A stretch of DNA of 64,000 bases from the NCBI GenBank assembly GCA_026545225.1, contig CM048845.1, positions 100,250,033 to 100,314,032 on the forward strand. Direction: 5' to 3'. The translations under genes and the position numbers were made by a program. The stretch's first letter is position 1. Every line of letters begins with the position of its first letter. Of this stretch, positions 38,278 to 51,056 are shown piece by piece. This DNA is from Cornus controversa. Taxonomy: Eukaryota > Streptophyta > Magnoliopsida > Cornales > Cornaceae. The notes beneath the pieces were generated by a model. It was not told the DNA's origin and searched no databases. It worked only from the letters and a program-made list of their open reading frames with translations.

Positions 38278-39055
38278 CCTTCCAGACTGGTGCACAAGAG
38301 TGCAATTGTACATACAGTTGAAGTCTTCCAAATCACGAATTCCAGACTGGTGCACAAGAGCGCAATTATACACGCAGCCGGAGTCTTCCAAATCACGCCT
38401 TCCAGACTGGTGCACAAGAGCGCAATTGTAGACACAGTCGGAGTCTTCCAATCATGTCTTTCAGACTGGTGCACAAGAGCGCAATTGTACACACAGTCGG
38501 ACTCTTTCAAATCACGCCTTCCAGATTGGTGCCCAAGAGCGCAATTGTACACACAGTCGGAGTTTTCCAAATCACGTCTTCCAGACTGGTGCATAAGAGC
38601 GCAATTGTACACATAGCCAGAGTCTTCCAAATCATGCCTTCCAAACTGGTGCACAAGAGTGCAATTGTACACACAGTCGGAGTCTTTCAAATCACGCCTT
38701 CCAGACTGGTGCACAAGAGCGCAATTGTACACACAGTCGGAGTCTTCCAAATCACGCCTTCCAGACTGGTGCACAAGAGCACAATTGTACACACAGTCGG
38801 AGTCTTCCAAATCATGCCTTTCAGACTAGTGCACAAGAGCGTAATTGTACACACAGCTGAAGTCTTTCAAATCACGCCTTCCAGACTGATGCATAAGAGC
38901 GCAATTGTACACACAGCCGGAGTCTTCCAAATCACGCTTTCCAGACCGGTGCACAAGAGCGCAATTGTACACACAGTTGGAGTCTTCGAAATTACGCCTT
39001 TCAAACCGGTGCACAAGAGCGCAATTGTGCACACAGTCAGAGAGTTCAAAGATAC
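38278..39055. repeat. 60-bp tandem repeat, about 13 copies
   Basis: Near-perfect 60-bp periodicity (one unit is 59 bp). Units contain CCAGACTGGTGCACAAGAGC, GCAATTGTACACACAG and GGAGTCTTCCAAATCACG. Because 60 is divisible by three, long open frames appear on both strands. These are periodicity effects. It lies between gag and the 3' LTR. Confidence 0.95.
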
Positions 39056-40100
39056 TCACACAAATTCACTTGTGCAAACCGCGGTCACATCTTTTTCGAG
39101 ATTGTTACACAAGTGCACATCTTAGTCTGCAAATTTATGTTACATAGGCATGCTACAAGAGAAATTTTTACTTCTAAAAAAAAAAAAAAAAAAAGGTATT
39201 GGCCATACCTATGTGGCTGAGAGTTTCTTCCCTTGAGTCAGTTGATTTCCAAGCTTCTGCGCCAAAAAAAAAAAAAAATTGAAGTTGCATGTTATATGAT
39301 TTTTCAGAAGTTTATGATACATAGGGTAGTGCAAGAGAGATGGTATGGCATTGTAATAATTCTCTTTGAGGTCTCAAGTTCAAAACTAATAGGCACCATA
39401 ATGAAAATCATTTTTTAGTTTTGTTTTACTCAAAAAAAAAAAAGAGGAAGAAGAAAGTGGCGTGAAGAAGAAGGAGAAGAGAAGAGAAGAGAAGAAAAAA
39501 GAGAAGAAAGTGGCGTGAAGAAAAAAAAAACGGAAAAGGGAAGAAGAAGAGGGGTGAGAAGAAGAGAAAGAAAGAAGAAAAAAAAAAGGAAGAAGAAGAG
39601 GCGGCTGAAAGAAGAAAAAAAAGAAAAGAAAAAGAAGAAAAAAAAAAAAAGAAAAAGAAGAGAAAGAAAGAAGAAAAAGAAAATCGATGAAAAAAAAAAG
39701 AGAACTTACGGTTGTTAGGTGTGAGCTTCTTCTAACTTTCTTTCAGTAACAGTTTAAGAGACTTCTCTCCAGTCTTCTCAGTTGGTGGGGCTTCTCTCCA
39801 TTATTCTCTGATGTGAAGGGTCTGAAGTGTAGGCTACATATATATAATGGTGAATTAATCCTATTTCTAATAGGATTCTCAAATTTCTAATAGGATTTTT
39901 AAATTTCCAATTCTGTTTGGAAAAGGAAAAAAAATCCTATTTCTAATAGGATTCTCAAATTTCCAATTCAGTTTGGGAAAGAAAAAAAATCCTATTTCTA
40001 ATAGTATTTTCAAATTTCTAATTCTGTTTGAACAAAAAAAAAATTAAATACTTCAAGTCCCGCTTTAAAAACATGACAAGCTCAATATAGCGCGAGACTT
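39056..40100. other. 3' untranslated part of gag-only element: purine-rich tract and repeats
   Basis: 39430-39710 is an almost pure A/G tract (GAAGAA words, GAAAGTGGCGTGAAG twice). 39860-40030 holds three to four copies of a unit with CCTATTTCTAATAGGATT and CAATTCTGTTTGG. No gene. Confidence 0.8.
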
Positions 40101-40115: not shown

Positions 40116-41199
40116 TGTAGACACATAAATTTTATGATGGTTTAATCACCGTCCGATTGGTCAATAAATCAAACACTTTTGATCAATTTAATTCTACGAT
40201 TATGGGTCCCAGCAACAGACACGTGTCAAAATCGTGAAGGTTCAGGCCTTTAAAAAAAACATATGTTCTAATTCAAATTTAAATTTGATTTATTTCCATA
40301 TAAAAGGAGGCAAAATCTCTTTTTATGGAAGTTGACACAATTAATGGAGAGTTACCAAATTAAACCTCCACCCCTTTTGCCTATAAATACAAGGTCACCC
40401 TACACATTCAACACACAGACAGAAGGAGAGGAGGACAGACACAAAGAGTTCAAGAGAACACAAAAGCTCTGTCAAACTTCTGCCTCAACGAAGACTCGAA
40501 GTTCTGAAGACGAAGAACATCAAGCACGCACACAAGTGCCGTTCTACTTCAAAAATCTTAAGTCCTCGAAGAATCTGAAGACGAAGAACATCAAGCACGC
40601 CACACAAGTGCAGTTCTACTTCAAAGAGCTTAAGTCCTTAAAGAATTTGAAGACAAAGAACATCAAGCACGCCACACAAGTGTCGTTCTACTTTAAAGAT
40701 CTTAAGTCCTTAAAGAATCTGAAGATGAAGAACATCAAGCACGCCACACAAGTGTCGTTCTACTTCAAAGATCTTAAGTCCTTGAGGAATCTGAAAACGA
40801 AGAATAACAAACACTCCACACAAGTGCCGTTCTTCTTCAAAGATCTCAACTCCTCAAAGAATCTGAAGACGAAGAATAACAAGCACGCCACATAAGTGCC
40901 ATTCTTCTTCGAAAACCTTCAATCCACCGTTCGAGATCAAGCTCTATCGGCACTCGATCGAAAATACCATCAAGCCTTCCTCAATCTTGAAGATTTGAAG
41001 AAAGCTCATCAATACTGGTTCAAGAACAAGCTTTCGAAACCCTTCTACCGAACATCAAGGAGATTGAATTAGAGGAAGATTCTTTATTATAAAAGAATCG
41101 ACCACAGAGAAATGTACCCATTTTTCTGAAATTAATAAAATTGATTGTTTGTTACTCAATTTCGTTCCTAGGTTTTTGGACATGAAATTTGTGTGTACA
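40116..41199 (+). repeat. 3' LTR with six 72-bp tandem units
   Basis: 1084 bp, TG...CA. Tandem units of exactly 72 bp at about 40500-40920 keep one frame open (repeated peptide containing KHATQVSFYFKDLKS). I regard this frame as a by-product of the 72-bp period. Confidence 0.9.
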
Positions 41200-41556
41200 G
41201 TTATGCTTCCAAAAGCGACATATATGACGGATTTGGCAGGTTATGCATCGAGCTAGGTTAAACAAGTTGAGTCCTCAGGCTAAAAGTTTCCGATGGGTTG
41301 CCCAAAATCATCACTTGACAGTAATGGACCGATAGATAGGAGGTTTGGGATCGATTTACAAGCCGAAGACTCGAGCTCATTGAATGAGTTGCAAAGAAGC
41401 CAATTTGAGTTTTGGCAGTTTCAATGGCGGACATCATATATGCAAATGCCACCTTTTGTGTGGTTGGGTCATCCGGGCAGTTCCATGGAAAATCAGCAGT
41501 ATTCAAGGCAGGCAAGTCCGGTGACAGACGGATAATCTCATTTTTCAAGGCAGTTC
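41200..41556 (-). pseudogene. UGT-3 pseudogene, exon 2, 5' part
   Basis: Resumes after the retrotransposon with the second GTTAT. It encodes the stretch from the intron acceptor (AAAG at 41560-41557, then GTALKNEIIRLSPDLP) to near SVIYVAFGS. A single-base deletion near 41408 (TTTGAGTTTTGG where intact copies have TTTGAAGTTTTGG) shifts the frame after AKT. The acceptor is changed from CATAG to AAAG but keeps AG. Confidence 0.9.
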
Positions 41557-41747
41557 CTTTGAAAAAAAAATCAAATAAGTACATAAATTGAAACAAGAAT
41601 AAGTGCTACTTTTGTTAAATTAATTTTGTGGATTGTTGGCTTTTGTACAAGTATCTTTTAGCCTTTGATTGGTTCTTGACAACTACGAGGGAAAGGAACA
41701 GAAAATGCATATATATGCGTGCATATTTGTTTCCTTTCTTTTCCTTT
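41557..41747 (-). other. Remaining UGT-3 intron, left part
   Basis: Matches the UGT-4 intron (53543-53735). It ends in the pyrimidine-rich site CCTTT at which the next retroelement is inserted; the intron resumes at 48984. Confidence 0.8.
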
Positions 41748-42925
41748 TGTAAATGGTAGGGTTCGATAGTGCTGGAGGAATCATTCACACTCAAGACTAA
41801 ACTATAGAATAGGGAAAGGGAAAGGAGATTGGGAGGTGAGGATGAATTGAGAGAGAGAGAAGACAAAAGGAATCTCAGACTGATCTGCAAGAATCTCCTC
41901 CATCTGTGCCACAAGTGCTCCACTATTTATAGGGCTCTTGGCACAGATCCCTGATAGCTGTCATGATGTCCAGTCCATTATTCCTTCTGGTCAGTCTGCG
42001 GATATGGCTGACGATTCCTTCTCTCAAGCCACCATGCCACCACAACCCAATTTCTCCATGCCTTCACACATCCCTATTAATATATGCTTAATACCACCTC
42101 TTTACAGTTGCCCCCTTGCATTCAATGATCTTTTAAGAGCGCGTGAATGAAAAATCCTACCTTTGCCTATTTCACATTTCCTAAGATTTGTCTTCACCAT
42201 CCAAATTCATTAATCACCATTTGAGTAATCACAACAATCTCCTAATAAAATCCACTCATGAGTCTACTCATCCCTTCATTCAAAAATTTTGTGAGTTCCA
42301 AGTTCAAAATTCATTCCTACCTTATATTTGTTTTTGCCTCGAGAAAAATCACTCGAGAACATCAAAAATACCTGACGCTGCTTACCGAGACATACCTATG
42401 AGAGGATATTGCCCCCTAATTCCTTCTTATCATTCGCAAGTTAAAGCCACTTGCGACCGCTTCATAAGTTAAAACCACCCATGATCGCTAACCTTAATCG
42501 TCGTGAGTTAAAGCATTCACGAGCACTTGTAATACCTTCGCGGGTTAAAGTCACCCGCTCCTGCTTACCATATCATAACCTTCGCAGGGTAAGGCTACCC
42601 GCGACTGCCAACCTTCGTAAGTTAAAGCACTTACGACCACTTAACCTTTCATAATTGCGTTTTTCAGAACCTTCGCGAGTTAAAGCACCCATGACTGCAT
42701 TTTCAGAACCTTCGCGAGTTAAAGCCACCCACGGCCGCTTCATGAGTTAAAGCACACATGACCGTTTTTCCAGAACCTTTGCGAGTTAAAGCCACCCGCA
42801 ACCGCTTCATGAGTTAAAGCACTCATGACCGCTATTTTTCATAACCTTGGCATGTGTGGTTCATAACTCTAGCAATGAATCAACAAGCTAGAAGGTGTAC
42901 CAGTTTTGAAATAGACTAGACTACA
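41748..42925 (-). repeat. Left LTR (minus orientation)
   Basis: Minus strand starts TGTAGTCTAGTC (42925) and ends ACCATTTACA (41748), 1178 bp. The TATA box CTATAAATAG lies at 41942-41933. U3 contains a repeated motif of about 50-60 bp (42430-42850; CGAGTTAAAGCCACCCGC and variants). No polypurine tract is evident at its inner edge. Confidence 0.85.
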
Positions 42926-43340
42926 ACTAGAGTTGAAATTAGTAGCACAAACAAAACCTCGAATACAAGTAGAGCTCAAATGACAGACAACATGAATTCA
43001 ATTGAGTATAATCAACATTATAAAAGTTCAGAAAAATCAGCAATATGGATCAACACAACAGCAATGGAATTCAGCCCCAAACAATAACTTATTTCAGCAA
43101 AAACAACAATATGTTTCAGCACCAAACAACAATGAAATTAAAAAAAAAAAAGCAATAGTTTCAACACCAAACAACAATAGATTCATCAAAAAATAGCAAT
43201 ATAAAATCAGCAAAAACAACATATTAATTCAGCAAAATCAGGATATAAAATCAGCAAGAATCAACATATAAAATCAGCAAAAAAAAAGCATATTAATTCA
43301 GCGAAATCAGCATATAACATAAGCAAGAATAAGCATATAA
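42926..43340. other. Interior of LTR element, A- and CAGCAA-rich
   Basis: Low-complexity sequence with AATCAGCA words; no gene. The kinase fragment begins at its right edge. Confidence 0.6.
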
Positions 43341-44561
43341 AGAAGACCATTAACTCAGTCAACAACCCAAGCTCTGGAGGAATCAAACTTACTATGTGAT
43401 TAGTATCTAGTTGTAGTTGTAAGAGGCTTGAAGCATTGGAAAAAACAGATGGGATTGAACCAGAGATATTATTGTTGCTAATCATCAACTCTGCAAGCAT
43501 AGAGAGGTTCCCAATTGACTGAGGTATGCTTCCTGATAAGAAATTCAAAGAAATATTGATAATCTTTAGGCTTCTGCAATTCCCAACTTCGTCTGGAATA
43601 GGCCCAACAAGATTGCTCTGCCAAAGTAACATCTTCTCTAACTTCTGAAGCTTACCTAACTCCAGTGGAAGCGCACCTGAGAGGCTATTTTCATACAGAT
43701 ACAAGTCAATCATCTCTGAACAGTTGCCCAAATATGGTGGTATTTCACCAGAAAGCATTGTACTATAGATAGACAATGTTTGAAGCTTGCTTAGTTTACC
43801 CAATGCAGCAGGTAAAGAACTAGAAATTTTAGTATCTTCAAGACCTAACACCTTTAGATTCTTGCAGTTTCCTATCTCATCTAGGATTTTCCAGAAGTTT
43901 CTTTGTTCCCACCTGCTCGTACAACTTCCAAATTTGACAATTTTCCTAGTTCAACTGGAAGATCCCTACTAAGCATATTATCAAACAGTAGGAGATTCTT
44001 AACATTAGTGCAATAGCCAAGCTCTAATGGGATCTTCCAAGTGAGCTGGTTGGAGTTCAATATCAAGTCTTGGAGGTTCAAGAGCTTACCAATGCTTGTT
44101 GGAATAGTACCTATAAGATTGTTTGAACTGACATAAAGAATTGTAAGTGAAGTTCAGCCTCCAATGTCAGGTGGGATTGTTCCCGTGAGATTAGGTCCTG
44201 AAATAATAAGTGTTTGGAGGAAAGGAAATGAGGAAAGATTGGAAGGGAAAGGAAGAGCTAAGTGCATGAATTGTATATTGATTTGGGTAACAAAGTTTTT
44301 GGTAGAATAAGTGATGTATGACCAGTTACAAGGAGTGGGGTCTAAAGGGTTCCAGTTTGAGAAAGCAGGAGGGTGTGGTATTGAAGAAGATGTGTGAAGC
44401 CATGAAAGTAGTGTAATGGCTTTATTGTTTGTTGTAAAAGTAGAAACTGATGATACAACAAGTATAGTGACTAGGAAAATGAGATAGTGGTGGCGGTGGC
44501 TGTGGGTGTTGAATGATTGCCTCGGCCTCGGCATCGACATTGGCATTTGCATTGGCCTCAA
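43341..44561 (-). pseudogene. Captured 5' part of an LRR receptor-like kinase gene (RCH1/RGFR-like)
   Basis: Starts at ATG 44561 (MRPMQMPMS) with a hydrophobic segment (IFLVTILVVSSVSTF), then an LRR N-terminal cap (TLLSWLHTSSS, NWNPLDPTPCNWSYI) and about ten leucine-rich repeats (LQDLILNSNQLT, LQTLSIYSTMLSGEIPP, LQLQLDTNHI) up to LLTELMVFF, where the similarity ends abruptly. Kinase and transmembrane parts are absent. The source gene would encode an LRR-XI type plasma-membrane kinase for root-growth peptides or a close relative (family assignment by motif recall). It is broken by TGA near 44154 and a frameshift near 43885. It is in the same orientation as the element's left LTR. About 300 bp of likely 5' UTR and promoter (44562-44870) came with it. 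Confidence 0.85.
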
Positions 44562-44880
44562 ATTCCAAACCAGTCTTCTTGGTTTTGCATTGTGTGTTTG
44601 TGTATGTGTGTGTGTCTGTCTCTTGGTTCTTTTCTTGCAGTCCCTCTGTTTAGTGCAATTAAATTATTACTATTCTACTTGCTTTGTAGTCAAGCAAGAA
44701 AAGAAGACACAGAGAAAGAGGAAATTTAATTAAAAAGGCTAACACTCACAACACCTCCACCATCTCCTCTGGGTTCTCTACTATGCTCTCTATTTACTTT
44801 CATTATAATTTTGAATTTACCCATTGTTAGATAGATTGCTCACACTAGTACACCATGTGGTCTTGCATTGTTTTCATTAC
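44562..44880 (-). promoter_or_regulatory. Probable captured 5' UTR/promoter of the LRR-kinase
   Basis: Sequence directly upstream of the kinase ATG differs in texture from the element's CAGCAA-rich interior: a (GT)n run at about 44593-44618 and pyrimidine-rich tracts. No TATA box identified with confidence. Confidence 0.4.
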
Positions 44881-47346
44881 CATAGTCAGTGATATTCAGC
44901 ATATACAACATCACAATTCAACATTATGTAATTCTCAAAATAGATTGTATAAATTTCAGTAACACGGAATTTAAGAACAGATTTCACAAACAGAATTCCA
45001 CAAATAGATTTCCACAAAACAGAATACCACAAATAGATTTTCAAAAAATAGGTTTCCACAAAGCAGAATTCCACAAACAAGTTTCCACAAAGCAGAATTC
45101 CACAAACAGATTCCTCAAAAATAGAGCATTCAACATATATCAATTTTGGACAGTAATATTACAAATTCAGCAAACAGAAATTTTGGACTGCAATATTATA
45201 AATTTAGCAATTCAGCATTGTAAAGGCAACTCAGCAATTTAGCATTTTAAATTCAGCAAATCAGCACATTTTTAATTCAGGCTCAACAATATATTAGTCT
45301 CTCAAAATCATCATTATTTATTCACAAATCAGCAAGTTTAAAAACCCAAATCAGCAATACAATAGTCTCTTGACAGCTCCACTTTGGATTATAAATGAGG
45401 TGCAGTTGAATAAATAATGATGTAACAACTTTCACAGGTTTAACTTGATTCTTACTGATCAATTATATAAATATACACATGTCAGGACTAAGGCAAGCAC
45501 CTTTGTAAATATTGTGAACAAATCAGTTCCTATTTGCATCTTTTGACAGTAGAAATAAATAGTAAATGGATAGAGTTAAAACTAATCTCAACCTTAGCCG
45601 AACAGTTTAAAAAAAACAACTCTAATGAACTTTAATGAGCATGCTAAAACCCTTTTGAGCTTAACCTACTACTGGAGGAAACATTGAATCAATTAAGAGC
45701 ATAACAGCAACAAATGTCTTAACAGTCACTGTTCACATCTTATATTGAGGTTTCAGAATATGAATTTGAGCTGTACTCAGTGAATTAAATTTAACTTAGA
45801 AATTATAGCCTTAATGTAACAAAATACATTTACTAAGCTCAAATAAAATAGTTATGATGTTTACTAAGTAAGTTTTGGTAGACTAAGGGTTTTGACAGGT
45901 TATTTGAGGTCAAAAGAGAGGTTTAGGTGTACAGATTCAAGGGCAGCCTCAATTTTAATTCTAAATCAGCATTGACAAATATGAAATGATAAATCCAAAT
46001 TGCAGACAGCAAACATAGTAGCTCAGAAACTCTTTAAACCATATTTTGAGAAATAGAATAACTCAAACATATTTTTAGCAATAGACACAATCACACAGAT
46101 TTTCAGAAGTAGAAATTTGGGGAAAAATAAATGTATTTCTAGGTCAGTACAAATGCAATTCAAATAAGAGAATAAACATGTATGCCAGTGAGTTATGTAT
46201 AAAAATATTTAAAGCACAAATTATAGCAAATTGATGTGTGCTTGTGCTTGTGTGAAAGAGAAGAGTTTAGAAAGATTATACCAAGTTTGACGAATCGAAA
46301 TGAGTCAAGTTTCTGGCGTTAAGAATGAACCGAGTAAGCTGTCGAAGAGAATGAATCAAGTAGTCTATCGAAGATGATGAACAAGTAGGCCGTCGACTAT
46401 GAATCTATATTCTGTTAAAGGATTGACGAAATTGATTTGCGAATCTGAAGATATCAGCGAAGATGATTCAAACAACTGAGAATTCGTGACTCAATCGGCG
46501 ATGATGATGAACTGAAACTCTATCAGCGATGATGATGAACACAGACTCAATCAGAGATGATGATGAACTAAAACTCGATCGGTGATGATGATGAACAGGG
46601 ACTCAATCGGTAAAAACTCGATTAGCGATGATTTCGAACACAAACTCAATAGGAGATGATGATGAACTGAAACTCGATCGGCGATGATGATTCCAGTGAT
46701 CGATGATGCCGAACAGAGATGATTCTACCGATCAATGATGTCGAACAGAGATGATTCCAACTATCGGTTCCAGCGATCTATGGTGCCGGATATGATGATT
46801 TCAGCGATCTATAATGAACAGAGACTCGATGATTCTGGCGAAGATTCTAGCGATCTTGATGCCAAACTGGATCGATGATGCTAGTGAAGAAGTTGATTTC
46901 AGAATCCCTTCTTTTCTTTATATTTCGCCCCCAACTCTCTATATTTTTTGTTCTTATTGTATGTTCTTTGTATGTGTGCTCAGTGAGAAGTGTGTGTCAA
47001 CAATTGGCAATGATGATGAACAGGGACTCGATTGACAGAAACTCAAATGAACACAGACTCAATCGGAGATGATGATGAACTGAAACTTAATCGCCGATAA
47101 TGATGAACAAGGACTCGATCGGCAGAAACTCGATCGCGACAATGATGAACAACCATCTCTCAGTCTCACATTCTGTCATCGAACTCTCATAATCGCACGC
47201 CAAAGAACCATCGAATCTGTCTACCTCTCCTCTTCCTCAAATCTCTCTCCATTTTTTTTTATTTTCTCCTCCCATCTCAGACCCCCACGACTGTTACCTT
47301 GAACCAGCTATGGTGTGAAGCCATCCTCCCCAGTGAAGTTGCCAAA
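44881..47346. other. Interior and leader of the LTR element, no gag or pol
   Basis: 44881-45370 repeats words such as CCACAAACAGATTTC and AATTCAGCA. 45370-46260 is AT-rich without frames. 46290-47150 is a degenerate 30-35 bp minisatellite (GACTCGATCGGCGATGATGATGAAC). The leader and primer binding site end at 47346. No protein domain found. Confidence 0.7.
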
Positions 47347-47785
47347 TGTAAATGGTAGGGTTCGATAGTGTTGGAGGAATCATTCACACTCAAGACTAAA
47401 CTATAGAATAGGGAAAAGGAAAGGATATTGGGAGGTGAGGATGAATTGAGAGAGAGAGAAGGCAAAAGGAATCTCAGACTGAGAGGGGCTCCATGATCTG
47501 CAAGAATCTCCTCCCTCTGTGCCACAAGTGCTCCACTATTTATAGGGCTCTTGGCACAGATCCCTGATAGCTGTCATGATGTCCAGTCCATTATTCCTTC
47601 TGGTTAGTTTGCGGATATGGCTGACAATTCCTTTTCTCAAACCACCATGCCACCACAACCCAATTTCTCCATGCCTTCACGCATCCCTATTAATATATGT
47701 TTAATACCACCTCTTTACAGTTGCCCCCTTGCATTCAATGATCTTTTAAGAGCGCGTGAATGAAAAATCCTACCTTTGCCTATTT
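47347..47785 (-). repeat. Truncated minus-oriented LTR (U5 side)
   Basis: Matches 41748-42178 base for base with few changes, then stops at CCTTTGCCTATTT and is joined through a few AT bases to the start of the inverted LTR. Confidence 0.85.
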
Positions 47786-47791
47786 TAATAT

Positions 47792-48983
47792 AGTAGTCTA
47801 GTCTATTTCAAAACTGGTACACCTTCTAGCTTGTTGGTTCATTGCTAGAGTTATGAACCACACACGCCAAGGTTATGAAAAAAAGCGGTCATGAGTGCTT
47901 TAACTCATGAAGCGGTTGCGGGTGGCTTTAACTCGCGAAGGTTCTGGAAAAATAGTCATGGGTGCTTTAACTCATGAAGCGGCCGTGGGTGGCTTTAACT
48001 TGCGAAGGTTCTGAAAATGCGGTCATGGGTGCTTTAACTCGCGAAGGTTCTGGAAAACGCAATTATGAAAGGTTAAATGGTCGTAAGTGCTTTAACTTAC
48101 GAAGGTTGGTGGTCGCGGGTAGCCTTACCCTGCGAAGGTTATGATATGGTAAGCAGGAGCGGGTGACTTTAACCCGCGAATGTATTACAAGTGCTCGTGA
48201 ATGCTTTAACTCACGACGATTAAGGTTAGCGATCATGGGTGGCTTTAACTTATGAAGCGGTCGCAAGTGGCTTTAACTTGCGAATGATAAGAAGGAATTG
48301 GGGGGCAATATCCTCTCATAGGTATGTCTCGGTAAGCAGCGTCAGGTATTTTTGATGTTCTCGAGTGATTTTTCTCGAGGCAAAAGCAAATATAAGGTAG
48401 GAATGAATTTTGAACTTGGAACTCACAAAATTTTTGAATGAAGGGATGAGTAGACTCATGAGTGAATTTTATTAGGAGATTGTTGTGATTACTCAAATGG
48501 TGATTAATGAATTTGGATGGTGAAGACAAATCTTAGGAAATGTGAAATAGGCAAAGGTAGGATTTTTCATTCATGCGCTCTTAAAAGATCATTGAATGCA
48601 AGGGGGCAACTGTAAAGAGGTGGTATTAAGCATATATTAATAGGGATGCATGAAGGCATGAAGAAATTGGGTTGTGGTGGCATGGTGGCTTAAGAGAAGG
48701 AATCGTCAGCCATATCCGCAGACTGACCAGAAGGAATAATAGACTGGACATCATGACAGCTATCAGGGATCTGTGCCAAGAGCCCTATAAATAGTGGAGC
48801 ACTTGTGGCACAGAGGGAGGAGATTCTTGCAGATCATGGAGCCCCTCTCAATCTGAGATTCCTTTTGCCTTCTCTCTCTCTCAATTCATCCTCACCTCCC
48901 AATCTCCTTTCCCTTTCCCTATTCTATAGTTTAGTCTTGAGTGTGAATGATTCCTCCAGCACTATCGAACCCTACCATTTTCA
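47792..48983 (+). repeat. Right LTR (plus orientation, inverted relative to the left LTR)
   Basis: Reverse complement of 41748-42925. The start has AG for TG (AGTAGTCTAGTC) and the end reads CCATTTTCA. The TATA box CTATAAATAG at 48785-48794 would direct transcription to the right, antisense to the UGT exons. Confidence 0.85.
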
Positions 48984-49042
48984 CCTTTCCTTTAATTCCT
49001 TTGCCTGATAATCAAAAGAACCTTAAAACATTCAAAAAAATT

Positions 49043-49522
49043 TACTGCAGCCTCAGTCAGCTTTGGAATGTGGAGACCACAGGCAAAGACTGTCACTGAT
49101 GAAGGCCAAAACATGGCATGCTTGATTCCTATCTTTTGAGCAATTCCTAGAGCCCATGAGACAGCTGCTACATCAGCAATGACACAAGTGATGTGTTCAT
49201 CATCATCACTTGATGAATTGATCTTGTTAATCAGGTCCTCCAAATGACCAGGCATCACTTTCAGAATAGATTCACTCAGCTTTGTCAAATCTTTTCGATC
49301 ATCCCCTAGTTCAAGTCCATTAGGGATCGATACCATCTCAATCCGGTTTTGCTCTTCACCCTTCTCCCGCGATGCTGCCAAGATTACATCATGTATGAAC
49401 TCTGTGTTAACAAATGTAACCTTGACACCGCCATCAGCAATCCGTTGTGAAACCTTCATGAGGGGCCGTACATGGCCTTGTCCAGGGTATGATACTACTA
49501 GGACATGAGCTCGCTTGCCCAT
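49043..49522 (-). pseudogene. UGT-3 pseudogene, exon 1, splice donor deleted
   Basis: ATG at 49522 (MGKRAHVLVVSYPGQGH) and 160 open codons, with His17 and Asp at the dyad position (CVIADV), unlike the Glu of the intact genes. There is one extra Ala codon after it. A deletion fuses the end of exon 1 (KLTEAA) directly to mid-intron sequence (TTTGAATGTTTTAAGG), removing IIDNNG, the GT donor and about 300 nt of intron. The gene could not be spliced even without the two retroelements. Exons 2 pieces lie at 41200-41556 and 33798-34329. Confidence 0.92.
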
Positions 49523-51056
49523 GATCTCTGATAACACTTCTGCATCTGCTTTGACATATGTGTGTGTATATATATATAAATATTTTGGTGTTTGCTTGCT
49601 TGATGAAGAGAAAACAGATATGCATTTGTTCTCAAGTGCATAAACTTGTCATTTTAATTAAGAGCTCCCTTGTTAAATCACAGTTTCATATTTTGACTTC
49701 AATTATCTCTTTTTTTCTTTTCTTTTTTTTTTTCTTAGTGATGAGATGCTGATGTTGATAGATTAACAAACAGATGAGTGGAGTTCTCAATTAAACTATA
49801 AATTTCATACAAGACGTAAAGAAAATGAGTAAAAAACAAGCTTTAGTATCAGCAAGTTAGTTCACAATATGAAGCTCGCTAATGGCATCTTTCTTCAATG
49901 GCTAAAGTAAGTGGATTTTGATTATTGAATGTCGAGGCTGGTCCTTTTTTGAATCAAAACGATCTTATCCAACATGGCCCACCATGACTTTCATCATTTC
50001 TCTCCAATAGGATGATGATTCTATTTTTTCTTGAAAAATGTTATCTTAGTTAAATCGCCCCAACTAAAGATAATTTAATTATACTGAAAGTATGAAGTAG
50101 TGAGCGTGCGTAGATGTTGGGTTTTTTCCTCTGTATTTTTGTGCTTGTATGTATTTATGGTGCACATTTTCAAATCCCTGTTGAGCAGGACAACACATGT
50201 AGCATGAGAATAAGCACCAAGCCTTAAACGTTTGTACCTTCCCTCTGTTTTTTTGGTTCCCAAAACGCTTGATCAAGGAGTTTCTTGTTCATGCATGATC
50301 TCTTATATTAGGCTTTATAATAAGCGAGGCGATATTTGCACTTCTTTTCTCTCTTATTGTATTTCATTTGTCTTTTTTTTTTAAAAGAAATGACAAAAAA
50401 GTTTATAAACTCATTCATGCATCAAATTTTATTTTATAATAACATAATTACCCTTTATCTTATAAACTTTAATTCTTTTTACCTTCTTTAATACTTTTTC
50501 TTTTTGTTTTTTTTTGGAGTAATGTCAGAAGATATAATTTATTCCATAGAGATAAAAAAATTTTGGCCCTTTTTTTTCGTACTATATTTTTTCCTCAAAT
50601 GAGATTATTTATTCTACCTATGATAACTATTTTTGGGTCATGTCAAAATAAATAATTAACATTTTTTTGCGTCTTTTTTTTTTCAGTTCTTGTCAAAAGA
50701 AATCTTTTTATACAACGTAGATAAACTTTTTTTTTTAATCCGGTAAAAAGAGATAATTTATTTTGCATAAATAACTTTTTTTTTCTTTCATTTCAAAAAA
50801 GAACATATTTAGAAGATATGACTTTTGTTTTAGATTCTCTCAAAAGAAACCTAAAATATTAAAGATGAAAAATAATGAGGAGATATCTTATAAGGTAGTT
50901 ATGTAACTTGATAAAAATTATAATCATTCACTTATAAAATTAGGATTATAATGTCATTTCATTTATGATGAAAGTGCAAATGTATAAAAGCGGAGTGCAA
51001 ATATCGCCTCCCAATAATAAAAGAGGTTTAGCTTCTTTTTACGATTGTGTCTCTGC
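49523..51056. other. 5' flank of UGT-3, duplicated segment
   Basis: No gene. 49915-52160 matches 59415-61628 almost throughout. T-rich and A-rich runs at 50380-50780. Confidence 0.75.

Follow-up and report, generated by a model that had tools for sequence, protein, structure and literature searches.

Integration of a long terminal repeat (LTR) retrotransposon is usually pictured as using one U3 end and one U5 end. Sabot and Schulman (2007, PMC1950507) described complexes of three direct LTRs with duplications, which they attributed to template switching. In these complexes the three LTRs are closely similar, one reverse transcription and one integration were inferred, and the middle LTR follows 3′ internal sequence and precedes a primer-binding site. 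These features are shared by an element of Cornus controversa that occupies positions 41748–48983 of the window analyzed here, a stretch of 64,000 bp (contig C1, 100250033–100314032). This inserted unit of 7,236 bp differs from the direct complexes in that one part is inverted without its interior and both outer ends are U5. We lean toward the reading that it was inserted once as an inverted composite, in which two sibling cDNAs, fused through their non-U5 ends, were integrated via two U5 ends. The single insertion itself is well supported because six of seven paralogous sites are empty, the three LTRs form a star, and the joint between the inverted parts is unique among 40 scored matches. A first-pass annotation of the window had already proposed a single integration of an abnormal cDNA by way of two U5 ends, and this is still the best reading.

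Structure of the inserted unit

The family to which the element belongs is a non-autonomous plant LTR-retrotransposon. Self-comparison of nine family loci showed full direct LTR pairs in four (L011–L014), a partial pair in one and no pair in four. Ordinary copies carry direct LTRs with TG...CA ends, and LTR length in the other family copies is about 370–450 bp. In L011–L014 the LTR starts with TGTAAAGAGG or a near variant, directly after AGGGGGCAAC, and ends with TTTACA. The polypurine tract (PPT)-like AGGGGGCAAC stood directly before the LTR start TGTAAAG in 8 of the 8 LTR starts examined, and a putative primer-binding site, TGGCRACTYCACTGGGGA, followed the inner U5 end in 6 of 6. All four complete copies are flanked by a 5-bp duplication, matching at 5/5 bases in L012 and L013 and at 4/5 in L011 and L014. 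From the direct LTR pairs of L011–L014 and the PPT position, the LTRs of the window were placed at 41748–42106, 47347–47719 and 48611–48983. The first-pass boundaries, with LTRs of about 1.2 kb, were wrong, since each of those blocks is an LTR plus a repeat-rich 3′ internal tail.

On the plus strand the unit reads LTR_A, tail_A, interior, LTR_B and a 66-bp tail (tail66), all in minus orientation, followed by the joint TAATATA and then by an 818-bp tail (tail818) and LTR_C in plus orientation. The inverted copies claimed at 41748–42924 and 47793–48983 were borne out, with differences at 9 of 359 sites in the LTR part and 18 of 752 in the tail part. LTR_A, the outer left LTR (41748–42106, minus), is 359 bp long and lacks 14 bp that are present in LTR_B and LTR_C; its U5 end forms the left boundary of the unit. 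Tail_A (42107–42956, minus) is the repeat-rich 3′ internal region and has the PPT-like GCAAGGGGGCAAC at its end; its positions 42107–42924 are common to tail818, an inverted copy at 47793–48610 (plus). The outer right LTR, LTR_C (48611–48983, plus), measures 373 bp, and its U5 end CCATTTTCA forms the right boundary. The 373-bp LTR runs from TGTAAAGAGG to CCATTTACA. U5 thus lies against host DNA at both outer edges, with TGTAAATGG at the left, exact to the base, and CCATTTTCA at the right, with one substitution. CCTTT stands beside each edge (41743–41747 and 48984–48988), as the first-pass annotation had also read, but as a candidate target-site duplication it is not diagnostic because the empty sites are CCTTT-rich.

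The minus copy ends at 47785 and the plus copy starts at 47793, separated by the 7-bp joint (47786–47792), which may be filler or scarred microhomology. This adjacency had been recognized correctly. What had been called a truncated LTR at 47347–47785 proved to be a complete 373-bp LTR, LTR_B (47347–47719, minus), together with tail66 (47720–47785, minus), a 66-bp stretch of 3′ internal sequence that bears the PPT and lies upstream of this LTR. Because LTR_B has the PPT and tail on its U3 side and the primer-binding site TTTGGCAACTTCACTGGGGA on its U5 side, it is the middle LTR and not a truncated outer LTR.

The interior (42957–47346, minus) showed no gag/pol match in the open reading frames (ORFs) scanned. 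Pfam gave only leucine-rich repeat (LRR) matches, in a scan of 10 of the 20 window ORFs of at least 60 aa and 3 of the 9 ORFs of L011/L013, and no recombinase was found among the ORFs scanned. The LRR matches mark a degraded 5′ fragment of an LRR receptor-like kinase gene at about 43340–44660 (minus), in the sense of the element, with GSO1 as the best PDB match and a contiguous match to At4g26540. Genome-wide sequence searches were carried out on the best 40 scored of 247, 190, 126, 67, 65 or 121 candidates per query. Among the best 40, C3:43691373-43692951 matches window positions 43339–44895 at 93% and may be the donor of the fragment or another captured copy. Parts of the interior between 43665 and 46273 recur in many places of the genome at 84–93% without the rest of the element, a pattern that suggests captured sequence shared among families. 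A related element, L032/L019 (C1:76898710-76905990), whose interior is 90% alike, also ends oddly: beyond its 3′ LTR it continues for about 85 bp with a primer-binding site and leader. L017 (C2:92.45M) and a locus at C1:67.26M are direct-orientation tandems of tail-LTR, tail-LTR, like known complex elements.

Insertion site and kinship of the LTRs

Elsewhere on C1 the right flank has nine matches between 100.26 and 100.39 Mb, in a local cluster of UDP-glycosyltransferase (UGT)-like genes. The joined flanks were aligned to seven of these nine paralogue loci; six span the join without an insert, and in the seventh the alignment stops before the join. Compared with the paralogues, only the 7,236-bp unit is added at the join, save small pyrimidine-tract differences. 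This emptiness of the paralogue introns at one point bears on the idea that two independent insertions abutted by chance, a plus element being later hit by a minus element. The family does have many copies, and tandem or adjacent tail-LTR units occur at C2:92.45M and C1:67.26M. Such a history is nevertheless very improbable, given that nothing of a plus-strand element is present to the left of 41748, that no host sequence separates LTR_B from LTR_C, and that LTR_A and LTR_C are far closer to each other than either is to the 11 other copies compared (for LTR_C, 2.4% from A versus 9.6–19.9% from each of those copies). Inverted repeats are well known to be prone to misassembly, which could point to an artefact such as a palindromic chimeric read. 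We give this hardly any credence, as 2–4% of sites differ between the arms and the flanking DNA is unique, single-copy sequence of the UGT cluster.

The insertion splits a UGT-like gene copy, presumably UGT83A, into 41100–41557 and 48992–49648 (minus). This copy has frame breaks in exon 2, and relative to the paralogues its intron next to exon 1 lacks about 280 bp, at about 49042–49047. Further left, long open frames of tandem repeats of about 20 codons were found at 38322–39125 and 40272–40895; they are probably repeats, not genes.

The three LTRs are of common age. Their distances are 12/359 (3.34%) for A–B, 9/359 (2.51%) for A–C and 15/373 (4.02%) for B–C, and the tails of A and C differ at 18/752 sites (2.39%). 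Private changes number 3 in A, 9 in B and 7 in C, and no site shows three states. In a tree of 13 LTRs the three were split from the others at 98% with a zero-length inner branch, which is a star, while A and C paired at 100% in a tree of 13 tail-plus-LTR sequences. The mutual closeness of A and C would fit a history in which insertion of a normal minus-strand element came first and a template switch during replication or repair, copying the element's own 3′ end in reverse, supplied the C piece afterwards; the CCTTT on the right flank could then be the original duplication of the normal insertion. The A–C divergence is as large as part of the A–B/B–C range, so this later step would have to date back almost to the insertion itself. 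Copying would also need to halt exactly at the U5 end, and the 66-bp tail upstream of LTR_B would need explaining, since a normal 5′ LTR has no such tail. We regard a later-added C piece as improbable.

A genome search for the junction at 47785/47792, which the first-pass annotation had called for, scored 40 matches out of 67 candidates. Both sides of the joint are covered by one of them, the window itself, and one side only by the other 39. Three of these 39 extend across the 7 bp, from position 83, and the two compared by sequence (C9:51.99M being the third) were ordinary tail and not the window joint. The joint is therefore unique to the window among the 40 scored matches.

Origin of the inverted composite

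In the favored reading, two reverse transcripts would have been made from the same or nearly identical RNA. The first cDNA would be full length, with its plus strand begun 66 nt upstream of the normal PPT junction and thus with an over-long U3 end; the 66 bp before LTR_B are the leftover expected from such a start. The second would be unfinished, consisting only of LTR_C and the 818-bp tail, the product expected when an unfinished minus strand is completed at the U5 end. The two non-U5 ends would have been joined through the 7-bp joint, before or just after strand transfer, and integrase supplied in trans would have used the remaining two U5 ends for insertion into intron-side DNA of a UGT gene copy. 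Several errors in one reverse transcription have retroviral precedents (PMC9278108).

The same product could come from a single strand made by template switching inside the particle and then integrated, and the joint sequence fits both routes. By this route the minus strand would copy LTR_A, interior and LTR_B, then 66 nt of the tail of a second RNA, and would jump to another minus-strand cDNA at tail position −818, to be copied to its 5′ end, the U5 boundary. Run-off would explain both exact U5 ends, and the PPT-bearing middle LTR would be accounted for as in the direct complexes (Sabot and Schulman, 2007, PMC1950507). The motif ATTTCA is common to the native sequences at both breakpoints. 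The joint, on the other hand, is no clean switch at ATTTCA, and random 7-mers fitted equally well in 256 to 1729 of 5000 trials (5–35%), depending on allele and composition. We consider this route possible but rather unlikely. A filler copied from the LTR was also considered and rejected: TTAATATA occurs in the LTR, yet 509 of 1000 fillers of element composition and 899 of 1000 all-A/T fillers do as well.

Two further head-to-head joints were found in the family. At C3:48558863-48567493 the order is LTR, tail, interior and LTR in minus orientation, followed in plus orientation by 311 bp of tail, LTR, interior, tail and a truncated LTR. When the right interior was used as a 1,701-bp query, its sole other full-length match among the best 40 of 65 was the left arm, at 88%. 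Kimura two-parameter distances are 0.106 for the interior arms, 0.117 and 0.146 for the LTR pairs, and 0.141–0.187 for LTRs between arms. The left-arm LTRs group at 87%, so the star is imperfect, which is evidence against a single event at C3. A plain nested insertion was rejected there, as the left half of the plus element was not found in the stretch examined. At C8 (about 3746415–3750282) a minus LTR with 57 bp of tail faces a plus LTR that lacks its first ∼21 bp and continues into primer-binding-site-like sequence. The larger piece of the left LTR is 13.9% from the middle LTR and 14.9% from L014. For its U5 piece the distance to the middle LTR is 8.1% and that to L010 is 6.2%, and between the middle LTR and a downstream LTR at 3762.9 kb the distance is 0.21. 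C8 was not accepted as a proven single event, since the LTR distances and the non-matching flanks CTAAA and CTGTA give no support.

In the window's letters, the first 8 nt of the 66-, 57- and 311-bp tails hold 6, 7 and 7 purines. As a baseline, at least 6 of 8 purines follow 197 of 842 positions in tail_A and at least 7 of 8 follow 54 of 842. The purine-rich tail starts at the three joints suggest, post hoc, misplaced plus-strand priming. More broadly, the family might repeatedly make head-to-head dimer cDNAs through frequent plus-strand priming at purine stretches upstream of the PPT; the U3 end would then be unusable for integrase, two-U5 insertion would be the escape, and the window, C3 and C8 would represent three such events with different joints. 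We hold this broader view as doubtful.

Several points weigh against joining of two cDNAs as the origin of the unit. Two unusual cDNAs are required, the joint also fits a template switch at the ATTTCA microhomology, and the LTR distances of 3.3–4.0% are no proof of simultaneity. The start of tail818 does not coincide with a purine tract, and the purine pattern had already been seen when it was tested. The CCTTT match is weak evidence of a target-site duplication. The pyrimidine tract at the insertion site is CCTTT-rich in the six empty paralogues, and of the 215 breakpoints in these tracts 24 would yield a 5-bp match even without any duplication; in the window's own flanks a chance match arises in 17 of 1296 (40 bp) or 91 of 38416 (200 bp) comparisons. 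The first-pass annotation was thus right to find CCTTT on both sides and to suspect it, while the duplication that it proposed is weaker than stated. As the match is not diagnostic, the case for integrase use rests on the exact U5 edges.

Comparison with known elements

The openly accessible literature, covered mostly at title level and with subscription journals outside it, held no recognisable report of a two-U5 inverted plant element, which is no proof of absence. A dated two-U5 insertion with an empty site and sibling LTRs would be evidence from nature that insertion can go ahead despite a dead U3 end, and a rare trace of retrotransposon copying and insertion gone wrong. If such events recur, large inverted repeats in plant genomes, a potential source of hairpin RNA, could come from reverse transcription and not from later rearrangement.

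Among described systems, large non-autonomous LTR elements without coding capacity, which we take to be the LARD-like class, share with the window the LTRs, PPT, primer-binding site and the lack of a gag/pol match in the ORFs scanned. The element in the window differs from them in having a fragment of a host LRR-receptor gene in its interior and in being an inverted composite. In DIRS elements inverted terminal repeats are likewise present, but there they are the normal state and go with a tyrosine recombinase, whereas the inversion in the window is one-off and complete copies of its family have direct LTRs, a primer-binding site and a PPT. HIV-1 proviruses with asymmetrical LTRs or inversions are, like the window, integrated products of faulty reverse transcription; the portion of that report drawn on here describes deletions and inversions and no two-U5 head-to-head composite (PMC9278108). 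The nearest known elements are the direct three-LTR template-switch complexes, which have all LTRs in one orientation, two complete cores and outer ends of the ordinary kind, U3 and U5. The element in the window behaves like something made at this same step of the life cycle, but it lacks the direct orientation of their LTRs.

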